A DNA stretch of 43,358 bases, from contig VBFI01000041.1 in the NCBI GenBank assembly GCA_005889275.1, forward strand, positions 1 to 43,358, read 5' to 3'. Source of the stretch: Chloroflexota bacterium (GTDB taxonomy: Bacteria; Chloroflexota; Limnocylindria; P2-11E). A program made the translations under genes and the position numbers. This document shows positions 30,056 through 35,427 of the stretch, piece by piece. The notes under the pieces are model-generated. The model saw only the letters and a program-made list of their open reading frames with translations. It had not been told where the DNA came from and searched no databases. Each line of letters opens with the position of its first letter. Position 1 is the stretch's first letter.

Positions 30056-30223
30056 ATGCTGAGGCTGTGGCAGCTGATCGCGATGGCGGCGAGTGACGCG
30101 GCGCGGGCCGAGCAGCTCGCGACTCTGGCCCCCTCCCAGCGGGCGCTCTGCGCCGATTCCTTCGAGCTCTTCGAGCGTCCGCGCGACGACGTGGCGGATG
30201 GATTCGAGCGGGCCGCGGCTTAA
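30056..30223 (+). CDS. Small hypothetical protein, 55 aa
   Basis: ATG 30056 is preceded by GGGAGG with 6-nt spacing, one of the best ribosome-binding sites in the window, so translation is likely. The product begins 'MLRLWQLIAMAASDAARAE' and ends 'ERPRDDVADGFERAAA'. It is one amphipathic N-terminal helix followed by an acidic tail, with a single Cys in 'ALCADSFELF'. No family is recognised. Its stop shares TTAA with the stop of the convergent membrane protein gene at 30220-30223. Confidence 0.6.
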   Translation: MLRLWQLIAMAASDAARAEQLATLAPSQRALCADSFELFERPRDDVADGFERAAA

Positions 30224-30720
30224 CGCGTGACGGCGCGCCTGCGCGGCAGACGACGCTCGCGGGGCTCGTCCTCGGGCTCTTCCCACTCGCGCTCGCTGTA
30301 GAGGTTCGCCGAGACCGACGCATCGGCGAGGAGCACGACAAGCCCCGCGACCGCGACGAGGAACGGCGCGGGGGCCGCGGCGGCGGCCGCGATGTCGGTC
30401 GAGCGGATGAGCGCCGAGCCGCCGTAAAGGATGAGCGCGACGAGCGCGGCGACGAGATCGAGACGCGCGAGTCCGCGCTCCTCGGCGGGCGTGTCGACGT
30501 ATTCGGCTATCGCCGCGAGCATCGCGATCGCGCAGACGACCGCGGTCGCGATCGTGAGCCAGTAGGCCACGATCACGAAGCCGTTCGTCGATGTGGATCC
30601 CCAGGCGAACCAGGCCATCAGGTCCGCGAGGGTGACCCCGATCCCGATCCCAACCGCGATGAACGCGAGCGCCGGGCGCGGGGCGAAGCCAAAGCGGCGT
30701 CCCTGGAAGAGCTCTTTCAC
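30220..30720 (-). CDS. Four-helix membrane protein, DUF2231-like
   Basis: A 166-aa protein with four hydrophobic helices ('LAFIAVGIGIGVTLADLMAWFAW', 'IATAVVCAIAMLAAIAEYV', 'LDLVAALVALILYGGSALI' and 'PFLVAVAGLVVLLADASVS', each a fragment of a helix). A charged cytoplasmic tail follows: 'REWEEPEDEPRERRLPRRR'. The layout (helix with Asp, turn 'DTPAEERGLARLD', two more helices) resembles DUF2231 membrane proteins, but the match is from memory and moderate. GTG at 30720 is 10 nt after TAGCAT. The gene after it in direction is convergent; the small CC-HH-C protein gene lies upstream on the same strand. Function unknown. Confidence 0.7.
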   Translation of the reverse strand: MKELFQGRRFGFAPRPALAFIAVGIGIGVTLADLMAWFAWGSTSTNGFVIVAYWLTIATAVVCAIAMLAAIAEYVDTPAEERGLARLDLVAALVALILYGGSALIRSTDIAAAAAAPAPFLVAVAGLVVLLADASVSANLYSEREWEEPEDEPRERRLPRRRAVTR

Positions 30721-30730
30721 GGGCCTGCCA

Positions 30731-30736
30731 ATGCTA
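30731..30736 (-). promoter_or_regulatory. Putative -10 box of a leaderless or short-leader promoter (membrane protein)
   Basis: TAGCAT on the minus strand ends 10 nt before GTG 30720. Its spacing is the longest in the set of similar boxes. Confidence 0.4.
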
Positions 30737-30769
30737 GCGGCGCGGAGGACCCTCCGGCGGTTTCGTCAC

Positions 30770-30901
30770 TCAGCAGCCGGGCTCCCCGTGGTGACCGCAG
30801 CAACCCTGTCGGAGCGTCGCCCGGAGCACGAGATTCCGGGCCGTGACGGCGAGACGACCCGGAAGGGGAATGTCGCTTCGCCGGAAGTTCTCGACGAACA
30901 T
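30770..30901 (-). CDS. 43-aa small protein with C-terminal CCGHHGEPGC motif
   Basis: ATG 30901 to TGA 30770. The protein has an N-terminal 'MFVENFRRSDIPLPGRL', a short amphipathic basic helix 'AVTARNLVLRATLRQG', and ends in Cys-Cys-Gly-His-His-Gly-Glu-Pro-Gly-Cys. Three Cys and two His in ten residues suggest metal binding, or a cysteine-based terminal tag. I remember similar 'CCGN(H/Y)G(E/Q)PGC' endings in short unannotated proteins of actinobacteria and Chloroflexota. Codon third positions are GC-biased as in true genes. No Shine-Dalgarno is seen; a possible -10 (GATAGT) lies about 37 nt upstream, overlapping the divergent promoter of the 30949 gene. Too short for most gene finders. Confidence 0.68.
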   Translation of the reverse strand: MFVENFRRSDIPLPGRLAVTARNLVLRATLRQGCCGHHGEPGC

Positions 30902-30936
30902 CGCGAGCGAGCCGCGGGCTCGGCGGTCCACGTTCG

Positions 30937-30942
30937 TACTAT
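30937..30942 (+). promoter_or_regulatory. Putative -10 box of a leaderless promoter (139-aa protein)
   Basis: TACTAT ends 6 nt before ATG 30949. The same bases, read on the minus strand, give GATAGT for the small gene at 30901. Confidence 0.55.
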
Positions 30943-30948
30943 CGCGCG

Positions 30949-31368
30949 ATGGCCGACGATCCGCGCGGGAAGGAGCCGGCGCTCAGCGTCGACCAGATCG
31001 CCCAGCTCCTTCCGGGGACCGGCGAGCTCATGGCGTCGGTCGGGATCGCCTGGTGGAAGTGCGCGTACGCGGCGCGGGGCGGCAACTGGGACCTCGCGGC
31101 GTACTTCGCGCGCCGGGTCCGCGGGCTCCAGCGGAAGCTCGCCGTGGTCCGGCCGAAGTACGCCCAGGATCTCGCGGCGTTCGAGGAGGATCTCCTCGCG
31201 CCGCTGCTCTCGGCGCTGGACGCACACGACGGACCGGTCTTCGAGCGCGTTTTCGCGGCGGCGACCGACCGCGCGAACGAGCTGCACGTCAAATGGGCGA
31301 AGCCGTACATCAAGTGGGTGCTGCCCGGCGAGGCCCCGTCCGATCTGGAGCTCGGGCCGGCCGATTAG
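30949..31368 (+). CDS. Conserved hypothetical protein, 139 aa
   Basis: A soluble, mostly helical 139-aa protein rich in aromatic residues: 'GIAWWKCAYAARGGNWDLAAYFARRVRGLQRKLAVVRPKYAQDL' (in part 'WWKCAYAARGGNWDLAAYF') and 'ANELHVKWAKPYIKWVLP'. I recall an uncharacterised bacterial family with the 'GNWxLAxY' and 'PYIxWxLP' segments, function unknown. ATG 30949 lies 6 nt after TACTAT and has no ribosome-binding site, so it is probably leaderless. It converges on the GNAT gene, sharing TTAG for both stop codons. No membrane segment or signal peptide. Confidence 0.75.
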   Translation: MADDPRGKEPALSVDQIAQLLPGTGELMASVGIAWWKCAYAARGGNWDLAAYFARRVRGLQRKLAVVRPKYAQDLAAFEEDLLAPLLSALDAHDGPVFERVFAAATDRANELHVKWAKPYIKWVLPGEAPSDLELGPAD

Positions 31369-31888: not shown

Positions 31889-33886
31889 CTAGGGGTGCGC
31901 GTCGAACCAGTTGGCGATGCGCTCGCAATGATCGACACGGTGTCTCGGCTGTCCACCGCGCGTCAGGTCGTGATTGTCCTCGGGATAGCGCACGAAGACG
32001 GCCTCCTTGCCGAGCACCTTGAGCGCCGTGAAGAGCTGCTCGGCCTGCTCGATCGGACAGCGAAGGTCGCGCTCGGCGTGGAGGATGAGGAGCGGCGTCT
32101 TTACGTTCGTCACGTAGGTGAGCGGCGAGCGCTCGACGAGCTTCTGCTGGTCACGCCACGGCGTCGCGTCGCCCATCTCGTGCTCCCAGAAGTGCCAGCC
32201 GATGTCGCTCGTCCCGAATGCCGAGATGTTGTTCGAGATGCTCCGCTGCGTGACCGCGGCCCGGAAGCGGTCGGTGTGGCCGACGATCCAGTTCGTCATG
32301 AACCCGCCGTAGCTCCCGCCGGTGACGTAGATCCGATCCTCGTCGATCCAGCCGAGCGACCGCGCGTGGTCGACGCCGGCCATGAGGTCCACGTAATCCT
32401 TGCCGCCCCAGTCCCCGACGCACGCTTCCACGAACCGCTCGCCGTACGCGTGGCTGCCCCGCGGATTGGTGAAGAGGACCGCATAGCCGCGGCCCGCGAG
32501 GACCTGGAACTCGTGGAAGAACGAGTAGCCGTACGCGGTGTGCGGCCCGCCGTGTATTTCGAGCACGAGCGGCCACCGTTTCGCCGGATCGAACCCGCGG
32601 GGCCGCAGGAGCCATCCCTCGATCTGCCAACCGTCCGCGCCGGAGAACTCGACGCGCTCCGGCGCCGCGACGTAGCGTGCGCCGAGGAGGTCGTCGTTGA
32701 GGCACGACACTTTGCGGATCGGGCCGCCGCGCTCGGCGACGCCGACGTCGCCCGGGTCGGTCGCTGTCGCGACGACGGCCGCGAAGCGCCGTCGTGCCCG
32801 GTCGAGCGACCACGACACGACCTGATGCGCGCCGAGCGTCTCGGCGCGGACGTCGCCGCCGCGCTTCGCGCACGAGTACGCGTTCGCGGTCCCTTGATCG
32901 GAGCCGAGGAAGAGGATGCGGCCATCGTCGGTCCAGGCAGGCGGCAGCGTCTGCGCCTGGCCACGGATGTCGCTGATCACGGCCGACCCGACCGTGCGGT
33001 CCCAATCCGCGAGAAGATCGCGGCCCGGGCCGCCGGCGGCCGGGTACGCCCAGAGGTGGACGTTCCGCGCGGCCGAGCCGATCGCCTCGGCGACTCCGTA
33101 GCAGGTGATCGTGTCGCCGTCCGGCGACCACGACGGATTGCCGTAGCTGCCGCGTCCGTCGGTGACGCGCCGCACCTTGCCCGCGAGCGTCGTCACGTGG
33201 ATGTCGGCGACGGTGTTGAGATCGCGTTGGTCGGTGCGATTGGACACAAAAGCGATCTCGGCGCCGTCCGGCGAGAACTCCGGCTGGCCGTCGTCCCAGT
33301 CCCCCGCGGTGAGCGGCCGCGGGGCGGATCCGTCGAGCGCCGCGAGCCAGACGTGCTTGCGCCTGCCGTCGAAGAGCCCGCCCTCGTCCGACTTGTACCG
33401 TGCGCGGTCGTAGACGCGGATCGCCTCCGGCTCGTCCTGCTCCTTCGGGTCGCGCACCACGAAGGCCACCCGCGACCCATCGGGCGACCACACCAGATCG
33501 GAGCAGTCGTCCGCGAAGGTCGTGAGCTGGCGGGCCTCGGCGCCACCCTGCGCCTGCACGTAGACGTTCCGGGGCGCGCGCTTCTTTCCCTTCGCGGGCT
33601 CGCCGCGGTCCGACAGGAACGCGAGGTTCCGTCCGTCCGGGGACCAGCGCGGCGACGAATCCTGACCGACGCCCGAGGTGATCTGACTCGCCGACTCGCT
33701 TTCGTCGAACGGGACGAGCCAGATAGCGCCCCGGTACCCGTCGCGGGCGTCGTTGACGACCTTCACCGCGTAGGCGACGCGAGCCCCGTCGGGCGAGATC
33801 TGCGCATCCGTCAGGAAGCGGAACTCGTAAAGATCAGTGGATGTCAGTGGGGGAAGCGACGAAGACAACGCGGCGTATCGTGCCAT
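31889..33886 (-). CDS. S9 family prolyl oligopeptidase-like peptidase
   Basis: A 665-aa two-domain serine peptidase. Residues 20 to about 390 form a beta-propeller with repeats 'SPDGARVAYAV', 'WSPDGRNLAFLSD', 'WSPDGSRVAFVV', 'FSPDGAEIAFVSN' and 'WSPDGDTITCYG'. Residues of about 400-665 are the alpha/beta-hydrolase: 'LVLEIHGGPHTAYG', nucleophile 'VTGGSYGGFMTNW' (Ser at about 525), Asp in 'LHAERDLRCP' and His in 'YPEDNHDL'. It looks like an acylaminoacyl-peptidase or S9C member. The ATG at 33886 is only 2 bp from the divergent ATG of the molybdoenzyme. Downstream in-frame TTG (33868) or CTG (33847) would also keep the conserved 'TSTDLYEFRFL'. Cytoplasmic. Confidence 0.93.
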   Translation of the reverse strand: MARYAALSSSLPPLTSTDLYEFRFLTDAQISPDGARVAYAVKVVNDARDGYRGAIWLVPFDESESASQITSGVGQDSSPRWSPDGRNLAFLSDRGEPAKGKKRAPRNVYVQAQGGAEARQLTTFADDCSDLVWSPDGSRVAFVVRDPKEQDEPEAIRVYDRARYKSDEGGLFDGRRKHVWLAALDGSAPRPLTAGDWDDGQPEFSPDGAEIAFVSNRTDQRDLNTVADIHVTTLAGKVRRVTDGRGSYGNPSWSPDGDTITCYGVAEAIGSAARNVHLWAYPAAGGPGRDLLADWDRTVGSAVISDIRGQAQTLPPAWTDDGRILFLGSDQGTANAYSCAKRGGDVRAETLGAHQVVSWSLDRARRRFAAVVATATDPGDVGVAERGGPIRKVSCLNDDLLGARYVAAPERVEFSGADGWQIEGWLLRPRGFDPAKRWPLVLEIHGGPHTAYGYSFFHEFQVLAGRGYAVLFTNPRGSHAYGERFVEACVGDWGGKDYVDLMAGVDHARSLGWIDEDRIYVTGGSYGGFMTNWIVGHTDRFRAAVTQRSISNNISAFGTSDIGWHFWEHEMGDATPWRDQQKLVERSPLTYVTNVKTPLLILHAERDLRCPIEQAEQLFTALKVLGKEAVFVRYPEDNHDLTRGGQPRHRVDHCERIANWFDAHP
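33876..33881 (+). promoter_or_regulatory. Putative -10 box of a leaderless promoter (molybdoenzyme), inside the S9 peptidase 5' end
   Basis: TATCGT ends 7 nt before ATG 33889, the same hexamer as at 9266-9271. If the S9 gene starts at 33886 this promoter lies within its coding sequence. Confidence 0.45.
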
Positions 33887-33888
33887 AC

Positions 33889-35427
33889 ATGAGCCGGTTC
33901 GACCGGCGGGCGCGCACCGGACTGCTCGTCGGAGCCCTCGCGATGTTCTTCGCCCTCGACGTCGCGTTCCTCTTGAGCATGGCGGGGCTGCCGTTCGTGG
34001 CCGACAGCCTCGGCCAGGCGATCATCGACGTCCTCCCGGGCTTCATCTCGATCCCGCTCATCGAAGCGCTGCACCAGTGGGCGAAGATCCTGCTCGGCAT
34101 CGGCGTGCTCGTGCTCTTCGAGATCGACGGCGCGGTGACGGGTCTCCTCGCGGCGGCACCCGGACGCCGCGACCGCGCGGTCATCGCGATCGGGCTCCTT
34201 CCCTGGGTCGCCGCGTACGTGCTCGCGCGGGTGTTCGCCGCCGAGCGCATCGAGCCGGTCACGAGCTTCATCGACGCGGCCGGAGGCGCGCTGGTCTTCC
34301 TTCTCGGGCTGGCCTTCCTCCTGCCGTCCGCGCTCGCGGGGCAAGAGGCCGCGTCGCCGTCGCGGCGGCGCGCCCTCGTCGCCACGGCCGCGCTCGCCGC
34401 TCTCGCGGGGATCGCCGCGCTGCCGCTGTCGCGGATCACCGGTTTCGGGGCGACCAACCTCGGCAACGCGCCGACCGCCGCGCGCCGGCTGCGGACGCGC
34501 GCCGACCTCGCGCCCGCCGATCCGGCGGTCGATGCGATCGCGGGGATCACCCCGCGCATCACCGCGAATGAGGATCACTACACCGTGGACACGACGCTCG
34601 TGAAGCCGCGCGTGGACGTCGCCAGCTGGGCGCTCGAGATCAAGGGGCAGGTCGAGTCGCCGTTCTCGATCACCTACGACCAGCTCCTCGATCTCGAGGC
34701 GGTCGAGCAGGCGCACACGCTCGAGTGCATCTCGAACTACGTCGGCGGCGACCTCATCTCGACGGCGGTGTGGACCGGCGTGCCGCTCCGCGATCTGTTG
34801 AACCGCGCCCAGGTCAAGGCGACCGCCTACGACGTGGTGTTCACGTCGGTCGACGGGTACACCGACTCCATCCCGATCGCCAAGGCGATGGAGGAGCGCA
34901 CGCTCGTCGCGTACCTCATGAATGGGAAGACCGTGCCGCAGGATCACGGCTATCCCGCACGCATGCTCGTTCCGAACATCTACGGCATGAAGAACGTCAA
35001 GTGGATGCGGACCATCGAGGTCGTGGACTACGACTTCCGCGGGTACTGGATGCAGCAAGGGTGGTCCGACAGCGCGGTCGTGAACACGAACTCACGGATC
35101 GACGTTCCCGGGCGGACCGTCCACTGGACCGGCGGCGAGGTCACCGTGGCCGGGATCGCCTTCGCCGGGAGCCGCGGCATCTCCAAGGTGGAGCTCTCGA
35201 TGGACGGCGCGAAGACCTGGCAGCCGGCGAGCCTTGAAGCGGCGCTGGCCCCGCTCACCTGGCGCCGCTGGAGCTTCCGGTGGTCCCCCTCGGGCGCCGG
35301 CAAGCTGAAGCTCCTGGTGCGCTCGACGGACGGCGCCGGCAACACCGAGACGCCGGTGCCTCGGGACCCCTACCCGGACGGCGCGACCGGCTACGACGCC
35401 GTCGACGTGGACGTCGCCCGGGGCTAG
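33889..35427 (+). CDS. Membrane-anchored sulfite-oxidase-type molybdopterin oxidoreductase
   Basis: 512 aa from ATG 33889 (an ATG at 33841 is also in frame). Residues 1 to about 180 hold about five membrane helices ('TGLLVGALAMFFALDVAFLLSMAG', 'ILLGIGVLVLFEIDGAVTGLLAA', in part). The periplasm-facing remainder carries the Mo-cofactor domain: 'DVASWALEIKGQV', the Mo-ligand Cys in 'LECISNYVGGDLI' (Cys at about 280), 'GYTDSIPIAKAM', 'VPQDHGYPARMLVPNIYGMKNVKWM' (in part 'HGYPARMLVPNIYGMKNVKW'), then a C-terminal dimerisation-like domain 'ISKVELSMDGAKTWQPA'. Sulfite or another small oxyanion is the expected donor; no haem domain is present, so a separate electron partner is needed. Converges on the cyclase gene, sharing CTAG. 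Confidence 0.9.
   Translation: MSRFDRRARTGLLVGALAMFFALDVAFLLSMAGLPFVADSLGQAIIDVLPGFISIPLIEALHQWAKILLGIGVLVLFEIDGAVTGLLAAAPGRRDRAVIAIGLLPWVAAYVLARVFAAERIEPVTSFIDAAGGALVFLLGLAFLLPSALAGQEAASPSRRRALVATAALAALAGIAALPLSRITGFGATNLGNAPTAARRLRTRADLAPADPAVDAIAGITPRITANEDHYTVDTTLVKPRVDVASWALEIKGQVESPFSITYDQLLDLEAVEQAHTLECISNYVGGDLISTAVWTGVPLRDLLNRAQVKATAYDVVFTSVDGYTDSIPIAKAMEERTLVAYLMNGKTVPQDHGYPARMLVPNIYGMKNVKWMRTIEVVDYDFRGYWMQQGWSDSAVVNTNSRIDVPGRTVHWTGGEVTVAGIAFAGSRGISKVELSMDGAKTWQPASLEAALAPLTWRRWSFRWSPSGAGKLKLLVRSTDGAGNTETPVPRDPYPDGATGYDAVDVDVARG

Follow-up and report, generated by a model that had tools for sequence, protein, structure and literature searches.

Is the short open frame on the minus strand at 30773–30901 a gene, and does that gene end at the TGA (30770–30772) that closes the frame? 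The frame lies in the window, by which we mean the whole 43,358-nucleotide stretch of Chloroflexota DNA analysed here. It reads MFVENF...CCGHHGEPGC*, and its product up to the TGA is MFVENFRRSDIPLPGRLAVTARNLVLRATLRQGCCGHHGEPGC. The first-pass annotation, which gave no strand, had described it as a complete small gene, and such a frame is present and far from chance. Homologues with an open frame and the same tail were found in nine of ten sampled genomes of the same genus (E 1e-15 to 1e-20). Across these nine genus members the median dN/dS was ~0.23, and divergence reached 0.447 at the third codon position compared with 0.175 and 0.133 at the other two. The small gene is thus real and under purifying selection. 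GC content by codon position was 0.74/0.57/0.80, a third-position bias weaker than that of the neighbouring genes (0.89–0.93). The gap was also said to be too short for ordinary gene callers, which is doubtful, as the frame takes up 162 nt of its 228 nt.

Both ends of the gene had to be revised. A GTG at 30931, ten codons 5′ of the ATG chosen at first, is common to the nine same-genus genomes in a gap-free alignment, and the bases preceding it are the same in eight of the nine. Judging from this alignment, the gene most likely starts at the GTG, with the ATG internal. The open frame as first described therefore stands, but its start does not, and its stop appears to be a recoded codon. With TGA read as U, the product has 65 residues, VDRRARGSLAMFVENFRRSDIPLPGRLAVTARNLVLRATLRQGCCGHHGEPGC-U-VTKPPEGPPRR, and would be encoded at 30734..30931 on the minus strand, with a TAG stop at 30734–30736; the GTG start and the tail are kept in the nine genus members, and the gene belongs to a family of 202 loci. 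The conserved tail CCGHHGEPGC corresponds to residues 44–53 (30773..30802, minus strand). The UGA (30770..30772, minus strand) would supply selenocysteine as residue 54 and complete a vicinal Cys-Sec pair (GCU).

The size of the family was investigated with a DNA pattern for the tail, which required neither a stop nor the body. The search of a public genome collection returned at least 117 loci. The matches listed came from Chloroflexota, Actinomycetota (Coriobacteriia, Thermoleophilia and Acidimicrobiia), Desulfobacterota and Nitrospirota, along with one record labelled Armatimonadetes and one Syntrophomonadaceae. At least 119 in-frame matches were listed, and all lay in open frames with the same body, though the pattern had asked for none; a stop directly followed GEPGC in 114 of 119 in-frame matches listed. 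The consensus was RPSxxxFFxNLxxPMPLxxKLxLxxRNNxIKIxxRQxCCGHxGEPGC, in which Asn 15, Pro 22 and Asn 33 each occur in about 90% of members. The tail residues C, C, G, G, P, G and C were invariant in 113 aligned members and likewise in 155; most of these residues were required by the pattern search, though not by the BLAST-based searches. Profile searches placed the family in 45 of 300 genomes of Chloroflexota (the phylum of the window) and seven of 148 of Nitrospirota. For three further phyla, each specified by one of its genomes, the counts were 21 of 197 (Desulfobia genome), 34 of 246 (Coriobacteriia genome) and one of 199 (Syntrophomonadaceae genome). The frequency is roughly 5–15% of sampled Chloroflexota, Actinomycetota, Desulfobacterota and Nitrospirota genomes. 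Homologues across phyla bear out the earlier suggestion of a widespread, unannotated micro-protein with a conserved Cys/His tail, whose undoing would have been a lack of relatives preserving the frame and C-terminal motif. Some loci carry tandem copies of the gene, each with its own TGA (L056 367–890, L068 4715–5236 and L070 1232–1656). A tblastn search of phage and plasmid sequences gave no match. The single match on a viral contig was a chance CCGHHGQPG within another frame, with the body absent, and a viral or mobile origin of the family has no support.

The codon after GEPGC was then counted at 202 distinct loci: TGA occurred in 194, TGT in five, TGC in three, and TAA and TAG in none. TGA makes up 41% of stops in the neighbouring genes at the same loci, and the probability of 194 TGA codons arising by chance is ~10^-81 (log10 P = −80.6) given local stop usage. 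Sixty-six of the TGA loci have neighbours that use TGA in under 35% of cases, and TAA and TAG are still absent after GEPGC there. The second stop, after the extension, was TAG at 80 loci, TGA at 75 and TAA at 38. The members first taken for forms with an extra tail carry Cys at the UGA position, GEPGC-C-EGSSAKPHSHGS, and this alternation of UGA and Cys at the same position is, on the sequences compared, the classical Sec/Cys exchange. The Cys-form members from Dehalococcoidia (L065, L079, L087, L097 and L172) have His-containing extensions, and most of them adjoin 2-oxoacid:ferredoxin oxidoreductase genes.

These counts bear on the reading that the locus encodes a 53-residue Cys-tail protein truly ending at the UGA, followed by a terminator or a regulatory hairpin. 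The frame up to the UGA is complete and conserved, and the extension is short (median 12 residues; 0–4 residues in 37 of 194), as this reading would have it. However, it does not account for the lack of TAA and TAG in 202 loci, least of all at the 66 loci with low TGA usage nearby, or for the Cys that some members hold at the same position. It also conflicts with coding constraint past the UGA, measured in one Chloroflexota clade with the extension MTKDEARAAGLI (divergence by codon position 0.12, 0.15 and 0.36), the extension elsewhere being too short for this test. A true stop is further opposed by a hairpin that lies at a fixed distance, has a SECIS-type loop and is not enriched in the Cys forms. 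We regard a true stop as highly improbable.

The hairpin came to light in the search for a terminator. It lies 12–15 nt past the TGA in many members, and its loop is of the type GGTC or GTN. The bacterial SECIS model calls for a stem of 4 bp or more, a loop of 3–9 nt that has a G in the first two positions, and a UGA–loop distance of 16–37 nt (PMC13188914). In the window the candidate element, CGGAG-GGUC-CUCCG (30743..30756, minus strand), fits this model, with its apical loop 18 nt after the UGA. A model-fitting hairpin with a stem of at least 6 bp was found in 69% of 193 TGA members vs. 13.5% of shuffles. The same test on the eight Cys members gave 12.5% vs. 10.6% of shuffles, i.e., no enrichment. 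The loop lies 17–22 nt from the UGA in most TGA members, and 175 of 193 have a G in the first two loop positions. Compensatory changes were seen among 18 sequences from the window's family and its order-level relatives, where three of five stem pairs had changed on both sides and none was broken, while the loop GGTC was invariant. The 45-nt stretch in the window is not unusually stable by folding energy (z 0.81), and consequently the comparative evidence carries the SECIS claim. The downstream palindrome had also been considered as a regulon-wide operator; this idea was dropped (20 sites vs. 14 in the reversed control), and the palindrome was later recognised as the SECIS-type hairpin.

The genome of the window encodes a tRNA-Sec with anticodon UCA (G000 contig 4, 21496–21588), as do all 19 other carrier genomes checked. 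SelA, SelB and SelD were not found in the neighbourhood of this tRNA-Sec, where they were sought. Of the 42 TGA-form carriers sampled in Chloroflexota, 38 had a tRNA-Sec match at E no higher than 1e-10. The four carriers without a strong match (E above 1e-10; G101, G152, G208 and G599) are perhaps incomplete MAGs or losses to filtering. G134, a Cys-form genome, likewise had no strong match. A tRNA-Sec was also present in twenty checked genomes without a detected family member, and the gene is absent from most genomes that have one; the tRNA-Sec is therefore permissive rather than predictive. Genome-wide co-occurrence with the Rfam tRNA-Sec model was discarded as weak evidence, given that the model matches other tRNAs, in control genomes too, and that most sampled Chloroflexota have tRNA-Sec. 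Anticodons were therefore checked singly.

Several features that serve as criteria for bacterial selenoproteins are found at these loci: an in-frame UGA where homologues have Cys (TGA 194, Cys 8, other stops 0), a SECIS hairpin just 3′ of the UGA, tRNA-Sec in the genome and, in one clade, coding conservation past the UGA. Because the UGA/Cys exchange, the SECIS-type hairpin and the tRNA-Sec point the same way, the TGA that follows GEPGC almost certainly encodes selenocysteine, which would make the product a selenoprotein. Another possibility starts from the same decoding and holds that the 53-residue truncated and the 65-residue Sec forms both matter, with selenium supply deciding between them and the gene acting partly as a gauge of selenium or stress. 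The position of the UGA near the end suits this, since truncation spares the body and three Cys, but inefficiency is a general trait of Sec insertion and does not imply a function, and we consider such a dual role improbable.

Searches of Pfam, NCBIfam and the PDB with the truncated protein returned no relative. The curated selenoprotein models of NCBIfam 20.0 were matched by none of 113 truncated and 19 full-length members, Sec included. The 2026 table of 119 prokaryotic selenoprotein families contains no CCGxxGxPGCU or GCU motif (PMC13188914), the deep-Sep additions hold no family with CCGxxGxPGCU (PMC12013277), and nothing was found for the tail strings in open full texts. The family is thus apparently undescribed, in the sense of being absent from these databases, both papers and open full texts. 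The KCU-star selenoprotein (DUF466/YbdD, NF033934) is similarly small with a C-terminal Cys-Sec (CU) pair (PMC13188914), but there is no NCBIfam or Pfam match between the two, and ours has CCG[HN]xG[EQ]PGCU and an extension. A CU motif is likewise shared with the Cys-Cys-COOH selenoprotein SaoC (NF040734) and the double selenoprotein MbdU (NF045648), for both of which a metal or organometal context has been proposed (PMC13188914), although neither matches in sequence. The CC/Se motif family selenoprotein (NF041239) takes its name from a CC motif and Sec; its motif is CxxU, and it gives no match. The CCG domain (PF02754) shares the letters CCG, and membership was rejected: weak matches occurred in three of 113 members (best E 0.0094, not above the gathering score), and our protein is shorter than the domain. 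The C(P)XCG zinc-finger micro-proteins (e.g., PMC10716476) are also very small and contain Cys, but our family lacks their pair of CxxC knuckles and has Sec. Selenoproteins are systematically mis-annotated where UGA is read as a stop, and standard gene calls appear to cost this whole family its active residue and its end in many environmental genomes. If confirmed, the family would add a widespread selenoprotein whose compact tail combines Cys-Cys and Cys-Sec, account for part of the selenium demand in uncultured Chloroflexota and Actinomycetota, and provide a simple system for testing what a bare Cys-Sec pair does.

AlphaFold2 predicted two helices in the body, at residues 9–18 (30878..30907, minus strand) and residues 23–40 (30812..30865, minus strand), of which the second is basic and includes Asn 33, conserved at ~90%. 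Beyond helix 2, the tail was predicted to be unstructured. Confidence was modest and too low for a fold search (mean pLDDT 68.5); a second prediction, for a Desulfobacterota member, had the same topology (pLDDT 63.4). A median net charge of +6 makes the body basic, and its amphipathicity is only slightly above shuffles (mean z 0.84). The protein's short length and conserved C-terminal Cys tail would fit the precursor of a ribosomally made, modified peptide whose core is rich in Cys. The body is nevertheless conserved like a folded domain (with both Asn 33 and Pro 22 close to 90%) and no recurrent modifying enzyme or exporter lies alongside, so that a peptide precursor is scarcely credible.

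The C-terminus of animal thioredoxin reductase, GCUG, places a vicinal Cys-Sec pair after Gly on a flexible tail, which is reduced by a second thiol pair. Our protein has no flavin domain, and we use this as a working analogy rather than as membership. SelB and tRNA-Sec, guided by the hairpin after the UGA, would insert selenocysteine after ...GEPGC. The flexible C-terminal tail on the basic two-helix body would then carry a vicinal Cys-Cys pair and, seven residues after it, a vicinal Cys-Sec pair (CCG[H/N]xG[E/Q]PGCU). By the same analogy, the Cys-Sec pair may cycle between selenylsulphide and thiol/selenol. A cellular disulphide reductase, together with the Cys-Cys pair close by, would re-reduce it, and the reduced tail could in turn reduce oxidised targets under oxidative or photo-oxidative stress. 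The redox chemistry, the partners and the stress role are inferred. For the explanation as a whole, a new small-selenoprotein family with a redox tail in stress repair, we estimate a probability of about 0.8. The narrower proposal, a mini-redoxin acting on its own through a Cys-Cys/Cys-Sec relay tail in the bacterial response to light and oxygen, is tentative, at slightly less than even odds; such a protein would be the working end of thioredoxin reductase without its enzyme.

Gene neighbourhoods were compared at 166 loci, with ~592 kb within 2 kb of the gene set against 608 kb beyond 3.5 kb. Near:far counts, for neighbour clusters picked after the fact from partly related genomes, were 9:0 for pyridine-nucleotide-disulphide oxidoreductase, 8:2 and 7:0 for two PNPOx-type flavoprotein families, 8:0 for class II photolyase, 5:1 for RudS (TudS-DUF1722), 4:0 for rubrerythrin, 5:0 for a sulphite-oxidase/MsrP-type Mo enzyme, 10:1 for LeuD and 9:1 for LeuB. 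Fifteen clusters of four or more loci were near-enriched vs. none far-enriched. RudS strips 4-thiouridine from tRNA and sits in light-responsive operons (PMC11417400), and superoxide damages isopropylmalate isomerase in E. coli (PMC9576991). By guilt by association, the common thread of the recurrent neighbours would be oxidative or photo-oxidative damage. A role as a small thiol/selenol redox protein in such stress is suggested because redox and photodamage genes recur as neighbours in several phyla, and we give a redox-stress role for the selenoprotein an even chance. Loci with a photolyase neighbour come from Nitrospirota, Desulfobacterota and Dehalococcoidia, and their arrangements differ. 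A universal operon partner was sought across the loci and none was found; some lineages keep the gene in a leucine operon. In Desulfobacterota and Nitrospirota a small PNPOx-type flavoprotein lies directly 5′ of the selenoprotein (L148 1547–1933, L133 3411–3794 and L221 4757–5173). It fell below the Pfam cut-off where scanned and is probably co-transcribed with the selenoprotein gene. Pfam tallies also hinted at a connection with an Fe-S carrier (Mrp), but this proved mistaken: the gene next door encodes a different membrane protein.

The strongest rival to a redox role is soft metal or metalloid binding, in which the selenoprotein tail (Cys, Cys, His, Cys and Sec, often with His-rich ends) would bind, buffer or pass on the ligand without redox catalysis. 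The tail is rich in ligands, 27 of 155 members start with MC, 11 others have at least three His near the N-terminus, 36 of 194 extensions contain at least three His, and known CU-motif selenoproteins include the metal-binding MbdU and SaoC (PMC13188914). The His-rich ends are nonetheless a minority, and 47 of 155 members have Asn at position 47. There is also no recurrent metal transporter or metal regulator alongside, the recurrent neighbours being redox and photodamage genes, and we consider metal binding unlikely. The initial guess of a metal-binding or redox protein fits the tail as far as it went; it missed that the tail appears to run on through the UGA as selenocysteine and a short extension.

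Before the GTG start stands gcgatagtacgaac, which all nine genus members share exactly or almost exactly and which recurs in several family members. The motif gcgatagtacgaacGTG, or variants of it differing by one to three bases, was found in all nine genus members and in several family members. This recurrence suggests a putative −10 element, GATAGT (30938..30943, minus strand), six bases before the GTG, with a leaderless start. The divergent gene at 30949 could use the reverse complement of this element. A short conserved element, gatagtac / gtactatc, lies between the two divergent genes at 30932–30948 and could be a symmetric bidirectional promoter, with both genes leaderless. The divergent gene (30949–31368, plus strand) encodes a 139-residue protein, kept across the genus and the family, that had no Pfam match. 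Directly 3′ of the selenoprotein gene, 30220–30720 (minus strand) encodes a 166-residue protein, also without a Pfam match, which is kept as a neighbour in 13 loci of the family-level lineage. Further along the window, the product of 33841–35427 (plus strand) has a molybdopterin-dependent oxidoreductase domain after a ~240-residue N-terminal part that, judging by its sequence, is probably membrane-embedded. Similar Mo domains recur near the selenoprotein gene at other loci.
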